Below are positions 2,481 to 28,419 of a DNA stretch of 64,000 nucleotides, in pieces; positions within the stretch are counted from its first letter, which is position 1; each line of letters begins with the position of its first letter. A model generated the notes under the pieces. It made no database searches, was not told the DNA's origin, and worked only from the letters and a program-made list of their open reading frames with translations. The position numbers and the translations under genes are program-made. Source of the DNA: an uncultured Pelagibacteraceae bacterium (GTDB taxonomy: Bacteria > Pseudomonadota > Alphaproteobacteria > Pelagibacterales > Pelagibacteraceae). Location: assembly GCA_902536305.1 (NCBI GenBank), contig CACAWX010000004.1, positions 1 through 64,000 on the forward strand, written 5' to 3'.

Positions 2481-3734
2481 TTAAGCTACTGATGTTGATG
2501 ACTTTTTACCATATGTGACAATGGGCTCAGAGACACCTTTTACTGAAGATTTATCTACTGTTACTTTCATTACATTTTCCATATCGGGTAATTCAAACAT
2601 TGTTTTTAATAAAATATTTTCAAGTATAGATCTCAATCCTCTTGCTCCAGTTTTTTTTGAGATAGCTTTTTTTGCTATTTCTAGAATAGCTTCATTTTGA
2701 AATTCTAGTTCTACTTCTTCAAATTCAAATAATCTTTGATATTGTTTGATCAATGAATTTTTAGGTTCTGTTAAAATTTTTACCAAAGATTTTTCATCTA
2801 GATCATTAAGTGTTGCGATAATTGGCATCCTTCCAATAAATTCCGGTATCAATCCATATTTGATTAGGTCTTCCGGCTCTAACATTTTCATTATTTCAGA
2901 AAGCGGTTGCTGTTTATAGTTTTTAACTTTTGCTCCGAATCCAATTGAACTTCCTTTCCCTCTACTATCGATTAATTTATCTAATCCTGCGAATGCACCT
3001 CCGCATATAAATAAAATATTTGTAGTATCAACTTGTAAAAACTCTTGTTGAGGATGTTTTCTTCCACCTTGTGGTGGGACGCTTGCTACAGTCCCTTCCA
3101 TTATTTTTAATAAAGCTTGTTGAACACCTTCTCCAGAAACATCTCTCGTGATAGAAGGGTTTTCAGATTTTCTACTGATTTTATCTACTTCATCAATGTA
3201 AACTATTCCTCTTTGAGCTTTCTCAACATTATAGTCAGCAGCTTGCAATAACTTTAAAATAATATTTTCAACATCTTCACCTACGTAACCAGCTTCAGTC
3301 AAAGTAGTAGCATCAGCCATTGTAAATGGAACATCTAATATTCTTGCAAGAGTTTGGGCTAATAAAGTTTTACCACAACCTGTTGGTCCAACTAAAAGTA
3401 TATTTGATTTTGAGAGTTCAATATCTTTATTATTTTTTGTTTCGTGATTAAGTCTTTTATAATGGTTGTGAACTGCAACAGATAAAATTTCTTTAGCAAA
3501 TTTTTGACCTATTACATAATCATCTAATACATTACAAATTTCTTTAGGAGATGGAACCCCATCCTGATGTTTTACAAGTGAACTTTTATTTTCTTCTTTA
3601 ATAATATCCATACAAAGCTCAACACACTCATCACAAATAAACACTGTTGGACCTGCAATAAGTTTTCTTACTTCATGTTGGCTTTTTCCACAGAAGGAGC
3701 AGTACAAAATATTTTTATTATTTTTTTCTGACAT
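2481..3734 (-). CDS. clpX: ClpXP unfoldase subunit ClpX
   Basis: AAA+ unfoldase that recognises tagged substrates and threads them into ClpP. The N-terminal zinc-binding domain has Cys12, Cys15, Cys34 and Cys37 in the C-x2-C-x18-C-x2-C pattern. Walker A is GPTGCGKT at 116-123, followed by a Walker [10 protein letters not shown] and a C-terminal sensor-2 region containing GARGLR. At 417 residues it matches the family. It lies 79 bases downstream of clpP on the same strand and upstream of lon, the common alphaproteobacterial order. A small opposite-strand open frame within its 3' end is a shadow. Confidence 0.98.
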
Positions 3735-9436: not shown

Positions 9437-11452
9437 TTATTTAAAATCTTTAAGATAATTGATTACAGATTTTCTCTTTTCTCTTTTAGCTTCATCTAAA
9501 GGTGTGGCACCCCATCTATCGCGAACGAATAATGGGTGTCCATGCGAGACTAAATACTCAACTACCTCCAAACAACCTTCTGCTGCTGCAAGATGTAAAG
9601 CTGTTCTAGAGTCATAATCTCCTGCATGTACGGGCACTCCTTTTGCAACCAGGGTTCGAACACCCTCAACGTTATTTTCAAAAGCAGCAAATAATAATTC
9701 AATTACTGCTAGTTCATCATCATAAATTGCCATTTTATCTGTTTTTCCATTTGGGTCTTCAACTAAATGTGTTGCTGGAGTATAATTGATATCGAGTTTT
9801 TCAAATTCTTTTACAACATCTTTGTGGTTATTATTTTTTGCATCAAAATAACCATAGCCTCCCCAACGATCAGGAATCGGTTTGACACCTTGTTTAAGTA
9901 AAAATTGAACAGCTTCTAGTTGACCTTCAGCTGATGCTAAGTGCAACGGTGTTCTCATATCATAGTCTCCATTTTGTAGATCTCTTTGTTCACTTACTAA
10001 ACGCTCTAAAGTTCTAATATTTCCATTACTTGCAGCCCAAATGGCTTCTCCACAACTATTAGCCCGCCACTTTGAAATCGGTATTTTTGGATCAAGACGA
10101 TCTGTATCTGTCATTGTACCATCAAAAGTATGAACTAAATATTTTGATGTAATTCGTTTTGCCATCTCAATCCCTCGAACACTATTGCCTTGCTTGTCTA
10201 AACGAGGAGAAAAAACACATATTCCCATTAATCTTGGAATTATCAAAATAACTCCTCCTCCTACTCCACTTTTTGCTGGTAATCCTACTTGTTGAAAGAA
10301 TGTACCGCTAGCATTGTACATTCCGCTAGTTTGTAAAACTGGTAAACAATTTCTTACTGTTTTCTGACTTAACACACGATCTTGAGAAATAGGACAAACA
10401 CCACTATTGGCAAGTGTTGCAGCAGCAGTTGCAAAATTTACTGAGGACATCTCTAATGAGCATATGCTAAAATAAAGTTTAAGAGCTTCTGTGACTGCAG
10501 GTTCAGAATAAAAATCAAATTCATCTTCATCAGGATGAATATCATTATGAAGCTCAGTTTTAGTGTGAGGTAAATTACCTGTAGCCATCAAAAGATAACC
10601 CATGGCAATATTATTATATCCTGTAAAATTTTCCTGTCGTGCCATATTCTTATTAAATCTGGGTAACTCAGCACCAAATTCATTTTTTGGAGACCACCCT
10701 ATTAGTCTTCCAAATTGTTGTCTTATATATCTCAATCTTTGACTGTGTGATTCCTCTGGACCTATAAGACCTGCTGTCATTATAGCGCCAGCATTGACCA
10801 TGGGATTAAAAGGTATTCGGTTAAGTTGACCGACAGCAGTTTTAGCTAATAGGGTAAGATCATCAAATTGTCTACCAGAGGGTTCTTGACCGACATGTTG
10901 GTGAACTTTTTCTAATCCTAATTTTTCCATTGCAAAGCAATAATTAAAAGGTTTACACATAGATTGAATTGAAAAATCAACCTCACTGTCACCCTTTTGG
11001 TATATTTGACCATCTGTTGTAACAATTGCGACGCCAAATTGTTCTGGATCAACATTTGCTAGAGGAGGAATATACGAAGCTAATTCACCTGATGTAACTT
11101 TTTTGGCCTCATCAAACATATTATCTAAATTTTTTGCAAAGTAGGTGAAGTCTGGTATTGATAGTTCACCTCGTAAGGCTTTTTCAACAATCAACTCTGA
11201 ACTTCGGATAATTTCAATAAAGTCTTCAAATACAATTTTATCGCCATGAGCGTCTAAATTTCGAAAAAGGCTAAACAGTCTTTTATCATTCTCTTTTAAG
11301 CCTGAGTTTAATAAAACATCTTTAAATCTTTTTGTTTTAATTAAATTATCTTCCTCTTCGCAAAGAGAGAAGAATATATTTGCTTCACGTTTTGATATTT
11401 TTTTTAACTTTTCTAATAAAGCTTCTTTGTTTTTATAAGAGTTTTTTTTCAT
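9437..11452 (-). CDS. glsA: glutaminase with N-terminal EF-hand-like domain and C-terminal ankyrin repeats
   Basis: Hydrolyses glutamine to glutamate and ammonia. The 671-residue chain has three parts: an all-helical N-terminal domain (about 1-125) resembling the EF-hand-like region of animal kidney-type glutaminase, a serine-dependent beta-lactamase-fold catalytic domain (about 125-430) with Ser164-x-x-Lys167 in SMCK and NPMVNAGA, and two ankyrin modules starting near residues 495 and 611 with GDYD-x-RT-x-LHLA. Compact bacterial GlsA proteins are about 310 residues and lack the flanking domains. It is downstream of the suf operon on the same strand (61-base gap) and convergent with glnA. Confidence 0.93.
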   Translation of the reverse strand: MKKNSYKNKEALLEKLKKISKREANIFFSLCEEEDNLIKTKRFKDVLLNSGLKENDKRLFSLFRNLDAHGDKIVFEDFIEIIRSSELIVEKALRGELSIPDFTYFAKNLDNMFDEAKKVTSGELASYIPPLANVDPEQFGVAIVTTDGQIYQKGDSEVDFSIQSMCKPFNYCFAMEKLGLEKVHQHVGQEPSGRQFDDLTLLAKTAVGQLNRIPFNPMVNAGAIMTAGLIGPEESHSQRLRYIRQQFGRLIGWSPKNEFGAELPRFNKNMARQENFTGYNNIAMGYLLMATGNLPHTKTELHNDIHPDEDEFDFYSEPAVTEALKLYFSICSLEMSSVNFATAAATLANSGVCPISQDRVLSQKTVRNCLPVLQTSGMYNASGTFFQQVGLPAKSGVGGGVILIIPRLMGICVFSPRLDKQGNSVRGIEMAKRITSKYLVHTFDGTMTDTDRLDPKIPISKWRANSCGEAIWAASNGNIRTLERLVSEQRDLQNGDYDMRTPLHLASAEGQLEAVQFLLKQGVKPIPDRWGGYGYFDAKNNNHKDVVKEFEKLDINYTPATHLVEDPNGKTDKMAIYDDELAVIELLFAAFENNVEGVRTLVAKGVPVHAGDYDSRTALHLAAAEGCLEVVEYLVSHGHPLFVRDRWGATPLDEAKREKRKSVINYLKDFK

Positions 11453-20828: not shown

Positions 20829-22992
20829 TCTCTTTATTTCTTTCGATAACCTTTTGTATAAATCTTGGGGTTAATGTTTTAATAGGATTGATTGTAGTTT
20901 TTATATTACCTTTAGGGCCCTTCATTTTAAAGCTTATACCAAATAAACCTTCTCCAACTTCTTTAGGGATAACAATATTTCCAATCACAGGTATTTTTGA
21001 AATCATTTTATTTAACGTTTTTGCTGGGACTATAGTTCCTCGTAAACTTGTAAGACCACTTTCGTCTTGATAACCCTCCATTAAAACTGACAAGCTTGGG
21101 CCTAAAGCAAGTATTTCATTTAATTTTAAAAGATTTTTATTTTTTTCCATACTAATTTCTAAAATATCAAAAGACAATCCCTCACCTTCAGCTAAATCTG
21201 CTAATCCACCTAAATCAGCTAAAGATAACAATTTTATCATTCCAGGTGCATTTATAACTTTAAAATTTTCAATTTTAAGTTTTGAATTAGATTTTGTGCC
21301 ATCAATTATTGAGGTGAAGTTTAATTTTCCACCGGAAAGCCCTTTAAAAAAACTATACTCACTTAGCAAAGGTTGTGTGAGATCTGAATAAATCTCTAAA
21401 TATTTCTTATTATCATTTTTGTTTACCGCCATTGATATATCTAAGAAATTATTATTACCATAATCACCTTTTGAAGATATTTTCACAAATCGACCTTTTT
21501 TAATTTCACCTATTAATTTGAAGTTTTGTAACTTCTCAGACATTGGAACATTAATTTTCTTAAAATCAATTTCAATAGCGCTATTAATTTTTGAAAGAAT
21601 TTTCACTTTACCGCTCTTGTTGAAAACTTTAACTAGATTGGTTGCATCAAATTTAGTACCTTTAATTTTGATTTTTTTCCCTTTTTCAATTTCAAAATCG
21701 TTATTAGCTGTTTTTACTTCTATCTTTTTAAAAGATAAAAGTGTGTTGTTATTTAAATTTAAATCTTGAATTTTAATTGAATTATTCTCTTCCTTAAAAT
21801 TTAACTCATTTATAGTAATGTCGTCTTTTTTCTTCTTTAAAACTAAAAATATATTCGCTACTGAGTTTTCTGGTTTTTTGTAATTTATTAAATCTAATTG
21901 TATATTTTTGATATAATCAAAGTCTAATTTTAAATTGAGAATTTTATTATTAAAGTTATTTTCTAAATTTACATCTAAAAAATTTGACTCATCAAAAGAA
22001 TATTTTCCATCACCACTAATTTTTATATCATTAGGTTTAAAAGATGTTTTCATTCTTAAGTCTGAAAAATAAATATTTTTTATATCTTCAAATATAAAAT
22101 TGTTCTTAATCGGACTTAATAATTCAAACTTAATTTTTTGTAATTTTCCATTAATGTTATAGTTATAATCTTTAACTTTATAAGTATTGTCAAATTCGAT
22201 AGAAAAATTATTATTTAAATCAGCTTTTAAAGTCCTCAAACTTTTAATAACATCGTATTTTTTAAAAAAATCGATATATTTTTTTGTGACTTGGTCACTA
22301 AGATCAATTTTTGAATTAAAATTTGAATTTAACTTAATTCCATTTTCTAAATTTAACCTTATATCACCGTCAGAAATCTTTATTTCTTCCAAAAAACCGT
22401 AAATATTTTTAATCAATATATCATTTTTATCTGCAAAAAAATTTAGATTTGTTTTCTTTAAATTGATATTATTAAATAATTCAACTTTTAAATTTCTTAT
22501 ATTGCCTTTAAATATAAAATCTTTTATTGAGCCATCTTCCTTTAAAAATATTTCAATTTCAGAGATTAATTTTCCCTCTTTAATTTTATTATTTAATAGG
22601 CTTTTGAAAGTGGATGGCTTAATAATTGATGATAGTTTACTTATTTGAATAATACTCAATTCCCCAGACATAAGGTTAATTTTCTTAATTATTAGATCAG
22701 CTCTAAATAATGATAAAAAATCGACATATACCTTAATGTTATTAACTGGCATTAATAAATCCCTATATTTAATCTCAGGATTTTGTGTCTCTAAAAATAA
22801 ACTGAATTCTTTTGGATTGATCTTAAATTTAATTGTTTTCAATTTTAAACTTATATTTTTATCCTGAAATGTCCTTTCGGTTACTAATTTATTAAACTTA
22901 TTAGTTTCAATACCTATTGTTGATAATATTAAAATTAGAGAAATAAATGATATAATTACAAATAAAATAAGATTAACTAATATTTTTTTCAT
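20821..22992 (-). CDS. AsmA/YhdP-like large periplasmic protein
   Basis: 723-residue protein with one N-terminal membrane anchor (about residues 4-26) and a long beta-rich periplasmic region very rich in Asn, Lys, Ile and Leu. The C-terminal third (from about 560) has the AsmA-like C-terminal signature, including GxLxF-type and GPKGNIKTTINP segments. YhdP/TamB/AsmA proteins bridge the periplasm and help move phospholipids to the outer membrane; a role here is inferred from family only. It overlaps the prfB stop by four bases, so the two are likely co-transcribed. Confidence 0.75.
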   Translation of the reverse strand: MKKILVNLILFVIISFISLILILSTIGIETNKFNKLVTERTFQDKNISLKLKTIKFKINPKEFSLFLETQNPEIKYRDLLMPVNNIKVYVDFLSLFRADLIIKKINLMSGELSIIQISKLSSIIKPSTFKSLLNNKIKEGKLISEIEIFLKEDGSIKDFIFKGNIRNLKVELFNNINLKKTNLNFFADKNDILIKNIYGFLEEIKISDGDIRLNLENGIKLNSNFNSKIDLSDQVTKKYIDFFKKYDVIKSLRTLKADLNNNFSIEFDNTYKVKDYNYNINGKLQKIKFELLSPIKNNFIFEDIKNIYFSDLRMKTSFKPNDIKISGDGKYSFDESNFLDVNLENNFNNKILNLKLDFDYIKNIQLDLINYKKPENSVANIFLVLKKKKDDITINELNFKEENNSIKIQDLNLNNNTLLSFKKIEVKTANNDFEIEKGKKIKIKGTKFDATNLVKVFNKSGKVKILSKINSAIEIDFKKINVPMSEKLQNFKLIGEIKKGRFVKISSKGDYGNNNFLDISMAVNKNDNKKYLEIYSDLTQPLLSEYSFFKGLSGGKLNFTSIIDGTKSNSKLKIENFKVINAPGMIKLLSLADLGGLADLAEGEGLSFDILEISMEKNKNLLKLNEILALGPSLSVLMEGYQDESGLTSLRGTIVPAKTLNKMISKIPVIGNIVIPKEVGEGLFGISFKMKGPKGNIKTTINPIKTLTPRFIQKVIERNKEIK

Positions 22993-24081
22993 TTTTTATT
23001 TTTAATCCCCTCCTCAATAAATTGATCGATGTTCCCGTCTAAAACACTTGAAGGATTTGTATTTTCTATTTTGTTTCTTAAATCTTTTACTAGTTGATAA
23101 GGCTGTAACACATATGATCTAATTTGATGTCCCCAACCTATGTCTGTTTTATTGTTTAATTCTTTCTGATTTTCTTCCTCTTTTTTTTGCATTTCATGCT
23201 CATACAATCTTGCTTTTAACATTTTAAAACAAGTCTCCTTATTTTTATGTTGTGACCTTTCATTTTGACACTGAACCACAATTTTTGAAGGTAAGTGAGT
23301 TATTCTTACCGCACTATCAGTTGTGTTAACATGTTGTCCACCAGCTCCACTAGATCTATAGGTATCAATTCTTAAATCTTTTTCATCAATCTTTATGTTA
23401 ATATCATCTTCCACTGCCGGATAAACCCATACACTTGCAAAACTAGTATGCCTTCTTGCTCCACTATCGAAGGGTGAAATTCGTACTAATCTATGAACTC
23501 CAGACTCAAATCTCATAAGACCATATAAATAATCACCATCAACTTTTAAAGTTGAAGATTTTATCCCGGCTTCTTCTCCTTTATGTTCGCTAATAATTTC
23601 ATATTTAAACTTTTTTTTATCAAACCACTTCATGTACATTCTACGTAACATGTTAGCCCAGTCTTGGCTTTCTGTACCACCTGCACCAGCGTGGATTTCT
23701 AAGTAAATATTATAGTCATCATTTTGACCTGATAAAAAACAATTAATTTCATTTTTTTTTATCTTTTGTAATATTTGTATAATTTTTTTGTTACAGTCAT
23801 TAATTGTTTCTTCGTCTTTTTCTTCAGAAGCTAATAAATACAAATCTTTAAGATTGTTCAGATTTTTTATCGATAATTTATAAGAAGTTAAAATATTTTG
23901 AAAAATTTTTTTTTGTTTTAGTGTTTTTTTTACTAAATTTTGATCTTTCCAAAAATTTTCTGATGAAGAAATTTTATCTAATTCTTTAAGTTTATTTTCA
24001 ATATCTTCGTTATCAAAGATACCCCCTAATATTATTTAGGGATTTTTCTGTGGCTAATAATAAAGAATCAAAGTTTTCCAT
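22989..24081 (-). CDS. prfB: peptide chain release factor 2, with programmed +1 frameshift
   Basis: Recognises UGA and UAA stop codons and triggers peptide release. The ATG at 24081-24079 opens 22 codons ending at CTT, followed by an in-frame TGA at 24015-24013; a +1 shift continues as GAT AAC GAA through the main frame to 22989, giving 363 residues. The whole length is 3n+1, as required. RF2 hallmarks are the anticodon-like SPF in RISPFDSG and the GGQ in SSGAGGQHVN. Its ATG overlaps the mrcA stop by one base and its stop overlaps the AsmA-like start by four. Confidence 0.97.
24013..24027 (-). promoter_or_regulatory. programmed +1 frameshift signal of prfB
   Basis: On the minus strand the sequence AGGGGGTATCTTTGA has all parts of the classical signal: an internal Shine-Dalgarno AGGGGG, a three-base spacer, the slippery CTT and the UGA that RF2 itself reads. 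Low RF2 lets the ribosome slip and make more RF2. A TAA follows the TGA directly in the unshifted frame, giving a double stop. Confidence 0.96.
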
Positions 24082-26589: not shown

Positions 26590-28419
26590 ATGGAAAAAAA
26601 TTTATATATTGATGCTTCGCATCCTAATGAAACGCGTATTGTTCTTAAATCAAATAATTCAATCGAAGAGTATGAATTTGAAGATAAAAATAATTTAAAC
26701 TTTAAGAATAACATTTATCTTGCAACAATAAGTAGAGTTGAGCCCTCTCTGCAAGCTGCCTTTGTTAATTTCGGGAGAGAACGACATGGTTTTTTAGCTT
26801 TCAACGATATTCAGTCTGATTATTATCAACTGCCATCTGAGGATAAAGAAAAGATTAGAGAAGTAGAAGAAAAAATAAGAGAGGAATTAAAAGAAAAAAC
26901 TTCAGAAGATAATCAAGATAATTCAGTTTTAGAAAACCAATCGGAGAGAGAAAATAAAGGTGAAAAAACTAATCAGGATGAACTTCACGTTGAAGAGGTA
27001 AATAAAAAGCAAGAATACAGAGATAAAGTAAAATCATCATTTGGAATAAAAAGATATAGAATACAAGAAGTTATAAAACCAGGGCAAGTAATCTTGATTC
27101 AAGTAATTAAGGAAGAGAGAGGGCAAAAAGGAGCTGCGCTAACAACATTTATTTCTTTAGCTGGTAAATATATGGTCTTAATGCCTAACACTCCTAAAGG
27201 AGGGGGTATATCAAGAAAAATTTTTAATTCATCAGATCGTCAGAAGATAAGAAATATTCTTAATGATATTGAGATTCCAAACAGCATGGGAGTAATTGTT
27301 AGAACAGCAGGAGCAAATAAAACTAAGAATGAAATAGAAAAAGATTTTAAAAATACACTTAAAACATGGGAAGAAATAAAAGAAAAAGCTCTAGAGTCTA
27401 ACGCTCCCTCCCTTGTTTATGAGGAAGGTGACATTATTAAGAGAACATTGAGGGATACATACGACAATGAAACAAAGAATGTTTATGTAGAGGGAAATGA
27501 GGCATATCAAAAAGCGAAAAAATTTATGAAAGAATTAATACCAAAAAATGTAAAAAATGTAAAAAAATATAGAGGCAAAATTCCTTTGTTTCATGATGCA
27601 AATATAGAGAAAGAATTAAATAATATATATGAACCCATTGTTAAATTAAAATCGGGTGGGTACTTAGTAATAAACCCAACAGAGGCATTAGTCTCAATAG
27701 ATATAAACTCTGGACAATCTACAAAACAAATTAATATTGAAAAAACTGCTTTAAATACTAACTTAGAAGCCGCGGAGGAAATAGCCCACCAAATCAAGTT
27801 AAGAGATTTATCTGGTCTTATCGTAATTGACTTCATCGATATGATAAACTTTTACAATAGAAGAATAGTAGAAAGGAAAATGAGAGAGAGTATAAAAAAA
27901 GATAGAGCAAGAATACAAATTGGAAAAATAAGTAATTTTGGCCTTCTTGAAATGACAAGACAAAGGTTACGTGAAGGATCAATTAAATGGGAAACGCAAT
28001 TATCTCTCTCTTCTTTTTCGCAAAAAATTTTAAAAAAAATCCAACACTTAGCTTTTACAGATAAAGTAAAAGTTATTAATGCTTACGTGCCTGAGAAAGT
28101 TAAAATTTATATTGAGATAAATTTGTTAAATGAATTAAAATATTTTCAAAAAAAATACTCTTTTGAAGTAAAAATTTTAGCTGATAATAAATTTATTATT
28201 CCTGAATATAAAATCGAATTAGTAAGTAGATCAAAAAAACTTATTAACTCTATTGAAAATACCAATTCAATTATTGAGATAAATAATAGAAAAAATAATA
28301 ACAGTTCAGCAAAAAAGATTAAAGAAAATTTAAAAAGCAAAGATAAAGTTAAGGTAAAAAAAACTAAAACTAAAAAGAAAATTCGAACACTTTGGGTAAG
28401 AAGAAGAAAAAAAATTTAG
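26590..28419 (+). CDS. rne: ribonuclease E/G
   Basis: Endoribonuclease for mRNA decay and rRNA/tRNA processing. The 609 residues contain an S1 domain split by an acidic, Lys/Glu-rich insert (about 85-145), a central catalytic region with metal-binding Asp371 (SIDINSG) and Asp417 (IDFIDM), and a short basic C-terminal tail ending LWVRRRKKI. The CPxCxG zinc-link expected after GLLEMTRQR (from residue 451) is missing, and the protein has no cysteine at all. There is no long degradosome scaffold; the tail may still be a short partner-binding motif. It converges on thiG, sharing TTAG. Confidence 0.95.

Follow-up and report, generated by a model that had tools for sequence, protein, structure and literature searches.

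The RNase E/G encoded in the window, i.e. the whole 64,000-nucleotide stretch of Pelagibacteraceae DNA that was analysed, has lost the zinc hook between its large and small domains. Comparison with homologs showed a shortened junction from which both hook cysteines are gone, a linker there that is constant in length and always carries W467 and L471, and retention of the predicted catalytic, sensor and small-domain features (Table 1). The explanation we favour, with slightly more confidence than doubt, is that the protein is an RNase E/G, predicted to be active, whose hook was excised once in the ancestor of the Pelagibacterales, and whose protomers would pair without a metal, with packing by W467 and L471. 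We regard it as an altered form of a known enzyme, not as a new system.

Table 1. Features of the RNase E/G gene in the window
Feature	Position	Strand	Basis or remark
RNase E/G gene	26590..28419	+	609 aa, ATG start, no Cys
74-residue stretch, residues 81-154, in S1 region	26830..27051	+	Gap between aligned stretches; E. coli has 7
D371 = E. coli D303, active site (predicted)	27700..27702	+	PDB alignment; relatives
D414 = E. coli D346, active site (predicted)	27829..27831	+	PDB alignment; relatives
Conserved helix before hook, residues 451-460	27940..27969	+	10 residues from GLLEMTRQR start
Hook-less junction, residues 461-474	27970..28011	+	~11 residues shorter than other Alphaproteobacteria
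W467	27988..27990	+	185/185 distinct Pelagibacterales sequences
L471	28000..28002	+	185/185 distinct Pelagibacterales sequences
Small domain, residues 472-553	28003..28248	+	PF20833, predicted fold
C-terminal end, residues 599-609 (11 residues)	28384..28416	+	Place of GWW PNPase-docking motif in other Alphaproteobacteria

The initial annotation had described an RNase E/G without cysteine, and the frame indeed held 0 Cys, together with 6 His. The protein scored well above the cut-offs of the family profiles TIGR00757 (468.5 against 325.95) and PF10150 (326.8 against 25.5), and below those of the equivalog models for RNase E (NF008074, 374.9 against 908) and, by far, RNase G (NF008689, 286 bits against 594). 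Its best solved relatives were E. coli RNase E chains (2bx2, E=1.4e-101, phmmer). It was the sole RNase E/G found in the source MAG of 29 contigs, where a search for a second one, at 73% completeness, returned none; a scan for distant relatives in viral contigs also found none. The TIGR00757 alignment of the protein ended at profile position 385, which is residue 463 and the expected start of the hook. In a search of the phylum with the same profile, which matched 293 of 299 genomes, the best matches listed all reached position 409-415, and the hook probably corresponds to positions 386-415.

The missing zinc link, also claimed at the outset, was confirmed: GLLEMTRQR starts at residue 451, and the next 20 residues contain no CPxCxG, the motif that comes after GLLExSRQRL in zinc-linked enzymes. 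In the comparison of SAR11 with other alphaproteobacterial enzymes that the initial annotation had proposed, CxxC stood at the hook in 0/207 informative Pelagibacterales loci (185 distinct sequences, 148 from the window's family, f1, and 37 from a second family, f2) against 133/137 loci of other Alphaproteobacteria, so the alignments indicate that the loss of the hook is not due to chance. The pair was also present in 10/10 loci from the wider phylum, which were read from the best matches listed. Both families were assigned to the Pelagibacterales by kinship labels and near-identical named contigs. The 207 loci were what remained of 210 once L301 and L303, which are short of the hook region, and L307, which had no core hit, were set aside; L001 and L002 are one gene. 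A match was absent from 27/297 genomes of the order, and 129 of the 270 with a match were read along with 80 named contigs, these 129 being picked not at random but from the best-scoring matches, the genera and the second family. Outside the order, 281/286 genomes of the class matched; the 137 loci read, likewise not a random sample, comprised 107 from the best matches listed and 30 chosen for a small genome or a low score.

The usual alphaproteobacterial pattern at this site was RQRLRPS..E.....C..CxGxG..RS.ES, and the usual Pelagibacterales pattern was RQRLR....[IV].W...L[ST]..S...K. From L460 (the L of RQRL) to K479 we counted 20 residues in 185/185 Pelagibacterales sequences, and the same span, aligned on the Ser with which the helix of the small domain starts, took 31 residues in the common alphaproteobacterial pattern. 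As judged from this alignment, the ~11 missing residues were shown to be those bearing the hook. A Trp within 12 residues after RQRLRx was found in 1/137 loci of other Alphaproteobacteria and 0/10 phylum loci. Conserved replacement ligands for zinc were sought near the junction, in columns filled in at least 70% of the 185 sequences, and none was found; the only columns with His or Cys in at least 30% of rows were 11, 66, 277 and 335, none of them in the junction or the small domain. The initial annotation had named a zinc link formed by other residues as one observation that would overturn it, and the linker and small domain held no conserved Cys or His. With the hook missing in all informative Pelagibacterales loci and no conserved replacement Cys or His, the annotation's suggestion of another interface is the natural reading of these sequences, and it is partly supported.

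The absence of cysteine from the whole protein, which the initial annotation had stressed, did not hold up as the main point. Cysteine makes up 0.85% of the window's proteins, so that ~5 would be expected in 609 residues (binomial P(0)=0.0056). Nevertheless, we rejected total absence as the main finding because it is weak evidence: 10/49 window ORFs of at least 150 aa and 4/21 of at least 400 aa had none either (RNase E counted in both), and relatives varied. Among the distinct Pelagibacterales sequences, counted on stop-to-stop frames, 86/185 had no Cys and 99/185 had 1 to 5. Cysteines in close relatives had been named as a second possible refutation; those in the 99 sequences never formed CxxC at the hook. 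The protein-wide absence is thus incidental and unremarkable.

The two proteins checked for a general abandonment of zinc suggest that there was none. ClpX (2481-3734, - strand) carried CSFC and CDEC, and DnaJ of the same genome kept four intact CxxCxGxG knuckles, a motif of the hook's kind. Two further genes of the window are recorded here in their own right. In prfB (release factor 2, 22989-24081, - strand), AGGGGG is followed by CTTTGA with an in-frame TGA at 24015-24013, a signal which we take to resemble the well-known programmed frameshift signal and which would explain the division of the gene between two frames. A 671-aa ORF at 9437-11452 (- strand) resembles, to judge from its translation, a glutaminase carrying ankyrin-like repeats at its C-terminus.

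In the large domain, E. coli D303, N305 and D346 aligned with D371, N373 and D414 of the window protein; we take N305, as well as V128 and R373, to be functional residues of the E. coli enzyme. Of the two catalytic aspartates in the initial annotation, D371 stood, and D417 did not, as it corresponds to E. coli D349, the true counterpart of E. coli D346 being D414. D371, N373, D414 and R441 occurred in 185/185 Pelagibacterales sequences. The residues R169 and T170 of the E. coli 5′-monophosphate sensor correspond to R238 and T239, which were kept, and G192, V196, R238 and T239 (E. coli G124, V128, R169, T170) were found in 182/182 rows with a residue there. Likewise, F58 and F68 (E. coli F57, F67) were present in 179/179 such rows. 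Among the E. coli residues, R169, T170, G124, D303 and D346 are named in excerpts of PMC2631609, and F57, F67, C404 and C407 are named in an excerpt of PMC9841416. The S1 domain (PF00575) reached 19.4 bits in the window protein against a cut-off of 22, and 62/63 close relatives matched it at E<=1. The 74-residue stretch in the S1 region was Lys/Glu-rich and poorly conserved in the relatives' consensus.

The initial annotation also suggested that the enzyme may be dimeric; the small domain, to which the dimer-dimer contact in E. coli is credited, is present by profile and predicted fold. PF20833 gave 25.4 bits on the window protein, just below the cut-off of 26.8, and matched 63/63 close relatives at E<=1 (best 2.7e-08); the predicted fold superposed on 2c4r_L with Z 12.2 and rmsd 3.5 over 89 residues. 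The AlphaFold model of the whole chain was poor (mean pLDDT 46.1), probably because its alignment comprised close relatives alone (>=73% identity). In a 220-residue fragment the small domain was predicted confidently, with 10-residue means of 80-92, and the W467 linker was drawn as coil, at pLDDT 32-43, so we drew nothing from these models on linker shape or dimers. E. coli RNase E headed the structure look-ups (Z 12.0-14.1), with rmsd 11-16 where both domains align. Hits at Z ~6 such as V-ATPase peripheral-stalk subunits were set aside as a common arrangement.

A quick tree of 92 rows, from which the hook and everything after it were left out, placed f1 and f2 in one group (SH-aLRT 88, not starred), each family at 99. 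Family f10 (L225, L232), which adjoins the Pelagibacterales (SH-aLRT 80), keeps the hook. The fewest changes of hook state on this tree were three, in the Pelagibacterales, in family f25 and in genome G413, with 38/89 inner branches, deep ones included, left open. The sequences thus fit a single loss in the ancestor of the Pelagibacterales and two losses elsewhere. These two other alphaproteobacterial lineages, with genomes of 0.8-1.2 Mb, became hook-less through different changes: in f25 (L262, L265, L269) the loop length was kept and the Cys pair replaced, and G413 (L234, a long branch) has its own deletion and no Trp. The tree program flagged f25 as a long branch, and its grouping with a second such lineage as a possible artefact. 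In three f2 genomes (G033, G053 and G050; loci L302, L304 and L306), the RNase E match was split into two segments, one of which contained stops.

The C-terminal tail has also changed. The median number of residues after RQRLRx was 144 in f1, 148.5 in f2 and 325 in other Alphaproteobacteria (146, 36 and 132 complete ends, respectively). Among these complete ends, GWW closed 36/36 f2, 0/146 f1 and 85/132 other alphaproteobacterial sequences. The window protein ends in LWVRR instead; LWxRR-like ends occurred in its genus, g1, and in g6 (28 and 7 sequences), and no Trp was found at the end in 53/53 complete ends from genera g2, g3, g4, g5 and g7. In Caulobacter, a change of either Trp of GWW severely disrupts PNPase binding, according to an excerpt of PMC3376730; by analogy, docking of PNPase may be weak for the window protein and absent in g2, g3, g4, g5 and g7. 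PNPase itself is encoded in the same genome (G000:C1:225642-227672).

According to excerpts of PMC2631609, the E. coli enzyme binds a single zinc through two CPxCxGxG hooks located between its large and small domains, and mutating or deleting the hook abolishes tetramers and substantially lowers activity. The small domain is credited there and in an excerpt of PMC3997798 with the dimer-dimer contact. Protein contacts contribute to the principal dimer as well, in which an RNA whose 5′ end is bound by one protomer is cut by the other (excerpt of PMC3997798). Because 5′-end sensing crosses protomers in this way and the sensor pocket is kept in SAR11, we infer that the principal dimer is still formed, metal-free, after the ancestor of the Pelagibacterales (SAR11) had probably lost the hook once; loss of the dimer would be hard to square with an invariant sensor and active site. 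The junction would be held by direct protein contacts, i.e. the DNase I interface, the small domain, and W467 and L471 at the former hook site. Such an enzyme would be unaffected by how much zinc is available, and by copper or oxidation at the cysteines of a hook. The more specific proposal that a Trp-centred protein clasp replaced the metal-sharing clasp, giving a zinc-independent quaternary structure that escapes both zinc shortage and the copper/thiol switch, is tentative, and we would put it somewhat short of an even chance. W467 could also pack inside its own chain, or contact RNA or another partner. Moreover, the enzyme may be weaker, or a monomer, since the E. coli hook mutants in the excerpts cited above lose tetramers and a substantial part of their activity.

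The main alternative is that a dispensable hook simply fell out under relaxed constraint, leaving a weak small-domain dimer or a monomer that uses direct entry, with the Trp linker packed against its own chain. The separate losses in f25 and G413 are in keeping with this, as is the decay of the PNPase tail motif; in addition, core catalysis is reportedly kept by a minimal peptide of E. coli RNase E from which the tetramer domain is missing, to go by the title of a 2006 paper by Caruthers. Relaxed loss does not predict, however, that W467, L471 and the linker length should be invariant in 185/185 sequences, nor does it sit well with the kept 5′-sensor pocket, which in E. coli serves the partner protomer. 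We consider it rather unlikely. One observation cuts both ways: a Caulobacter RNase E construct showed no zinc binding in vitro (excerpt of PMC12510024), so that the role of zinc is already uncertain in the class, which supports relaxed loss as much as metal-free pairing.

It is improbable that the W467 linker instead serves to bind RNA or some other SAR11 protein, independently of subunit contacts. Such a site would be in keeping with a linker that is predicted to be coil and has an aromatic residue that never varies, but W467 sits exactly where a subunit hook was removed, and we know of no partner protein for this linker. Far more remote is the prospect that other residues still bind zinc where the protomers of the dimer meet: the window protein has its six His to offer, against which stand the lack of Cys in it and in 85 other distinct sequences of the 185, and the lack of His/Cys-rich columns in the junction and small domain. 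A sequencing or assembly error, conceivable for a window derived from a MAG, or a pseudogene was refuted by the same change in 207/207 loci from many assemblies, including a Candidatus Pelagibacter ubique HIMB058 scaffold (L051), and by an intact open frame with its active-site residues.

Among the papers listed in a search of openly licensed literature, no title or opening of an abstract reported a hook-less RNase E. CxxC is called conserved throughout alphaproteobacterial RNase E homologs in an excerpt of PMC12510024, to which the SAR11 sequences are an order-wide exception. If metal-free pairing through W467 and L471 is correct, one of the most abundant groups of ocean bacteria has a zinc-independent RNase E. 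An order in which the hook has given way, at that very site, to a conserved substitute offers a natural test of the role of zinc, and a swap of the junction within one enzyme would make the question of what the zinc is for testable. The result is relevant, too, to how SAR11 cells degrade mRNA, given their short scaffold tail and, in genera g2, g3, g4, g5 and g7, the loss of the Trp of the PNPase motif. Moreover, if the hook cysteines act as a copper or thiol switch, SAR11 would lack that switch.

Compared with E. coli RNase E (2bx2, 2c4r, 2vmk), the window protein has the same order, with a large domain carrying the predicted active site and 5′ sensor followed by the small domain. It differs in lacking the C404/C407 hook, in its shorter junction, and in having ~55 residues after the small domain, in contrast to the noncatalytic region 530-1061 of E. 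coli. RNase G (Rng) shares the short C-terminus and gave the profile match noted above; Zn-link cysteines are, however, reported for both RNase E and RNase G in an excerpt of PMC9841416, and RNase G retains what the window protein has lost. The enzymes of f25 and G413 also lack CxxC at the hook and come from small genomes, as in the Pelagibacterales, but differ in how the hook was changed, and the tree places them apart, with deep branches open. The catalytic region matches the Caulobacter type, mostly at 43-53% identity among the class matches listed. Caulobacter RNase E has a CxxC hook (CEHC), whereas the window protein lacks the hook, its tail is short, and LWVRR stands where GWW would be. 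According to excerpts of PMC12510024, copper drives oxidation of the Caulobacter hook cysteines, and the double mutant with both changed to Ala had a ctrA half-life of 3.14 min, compared to 0.67 min.
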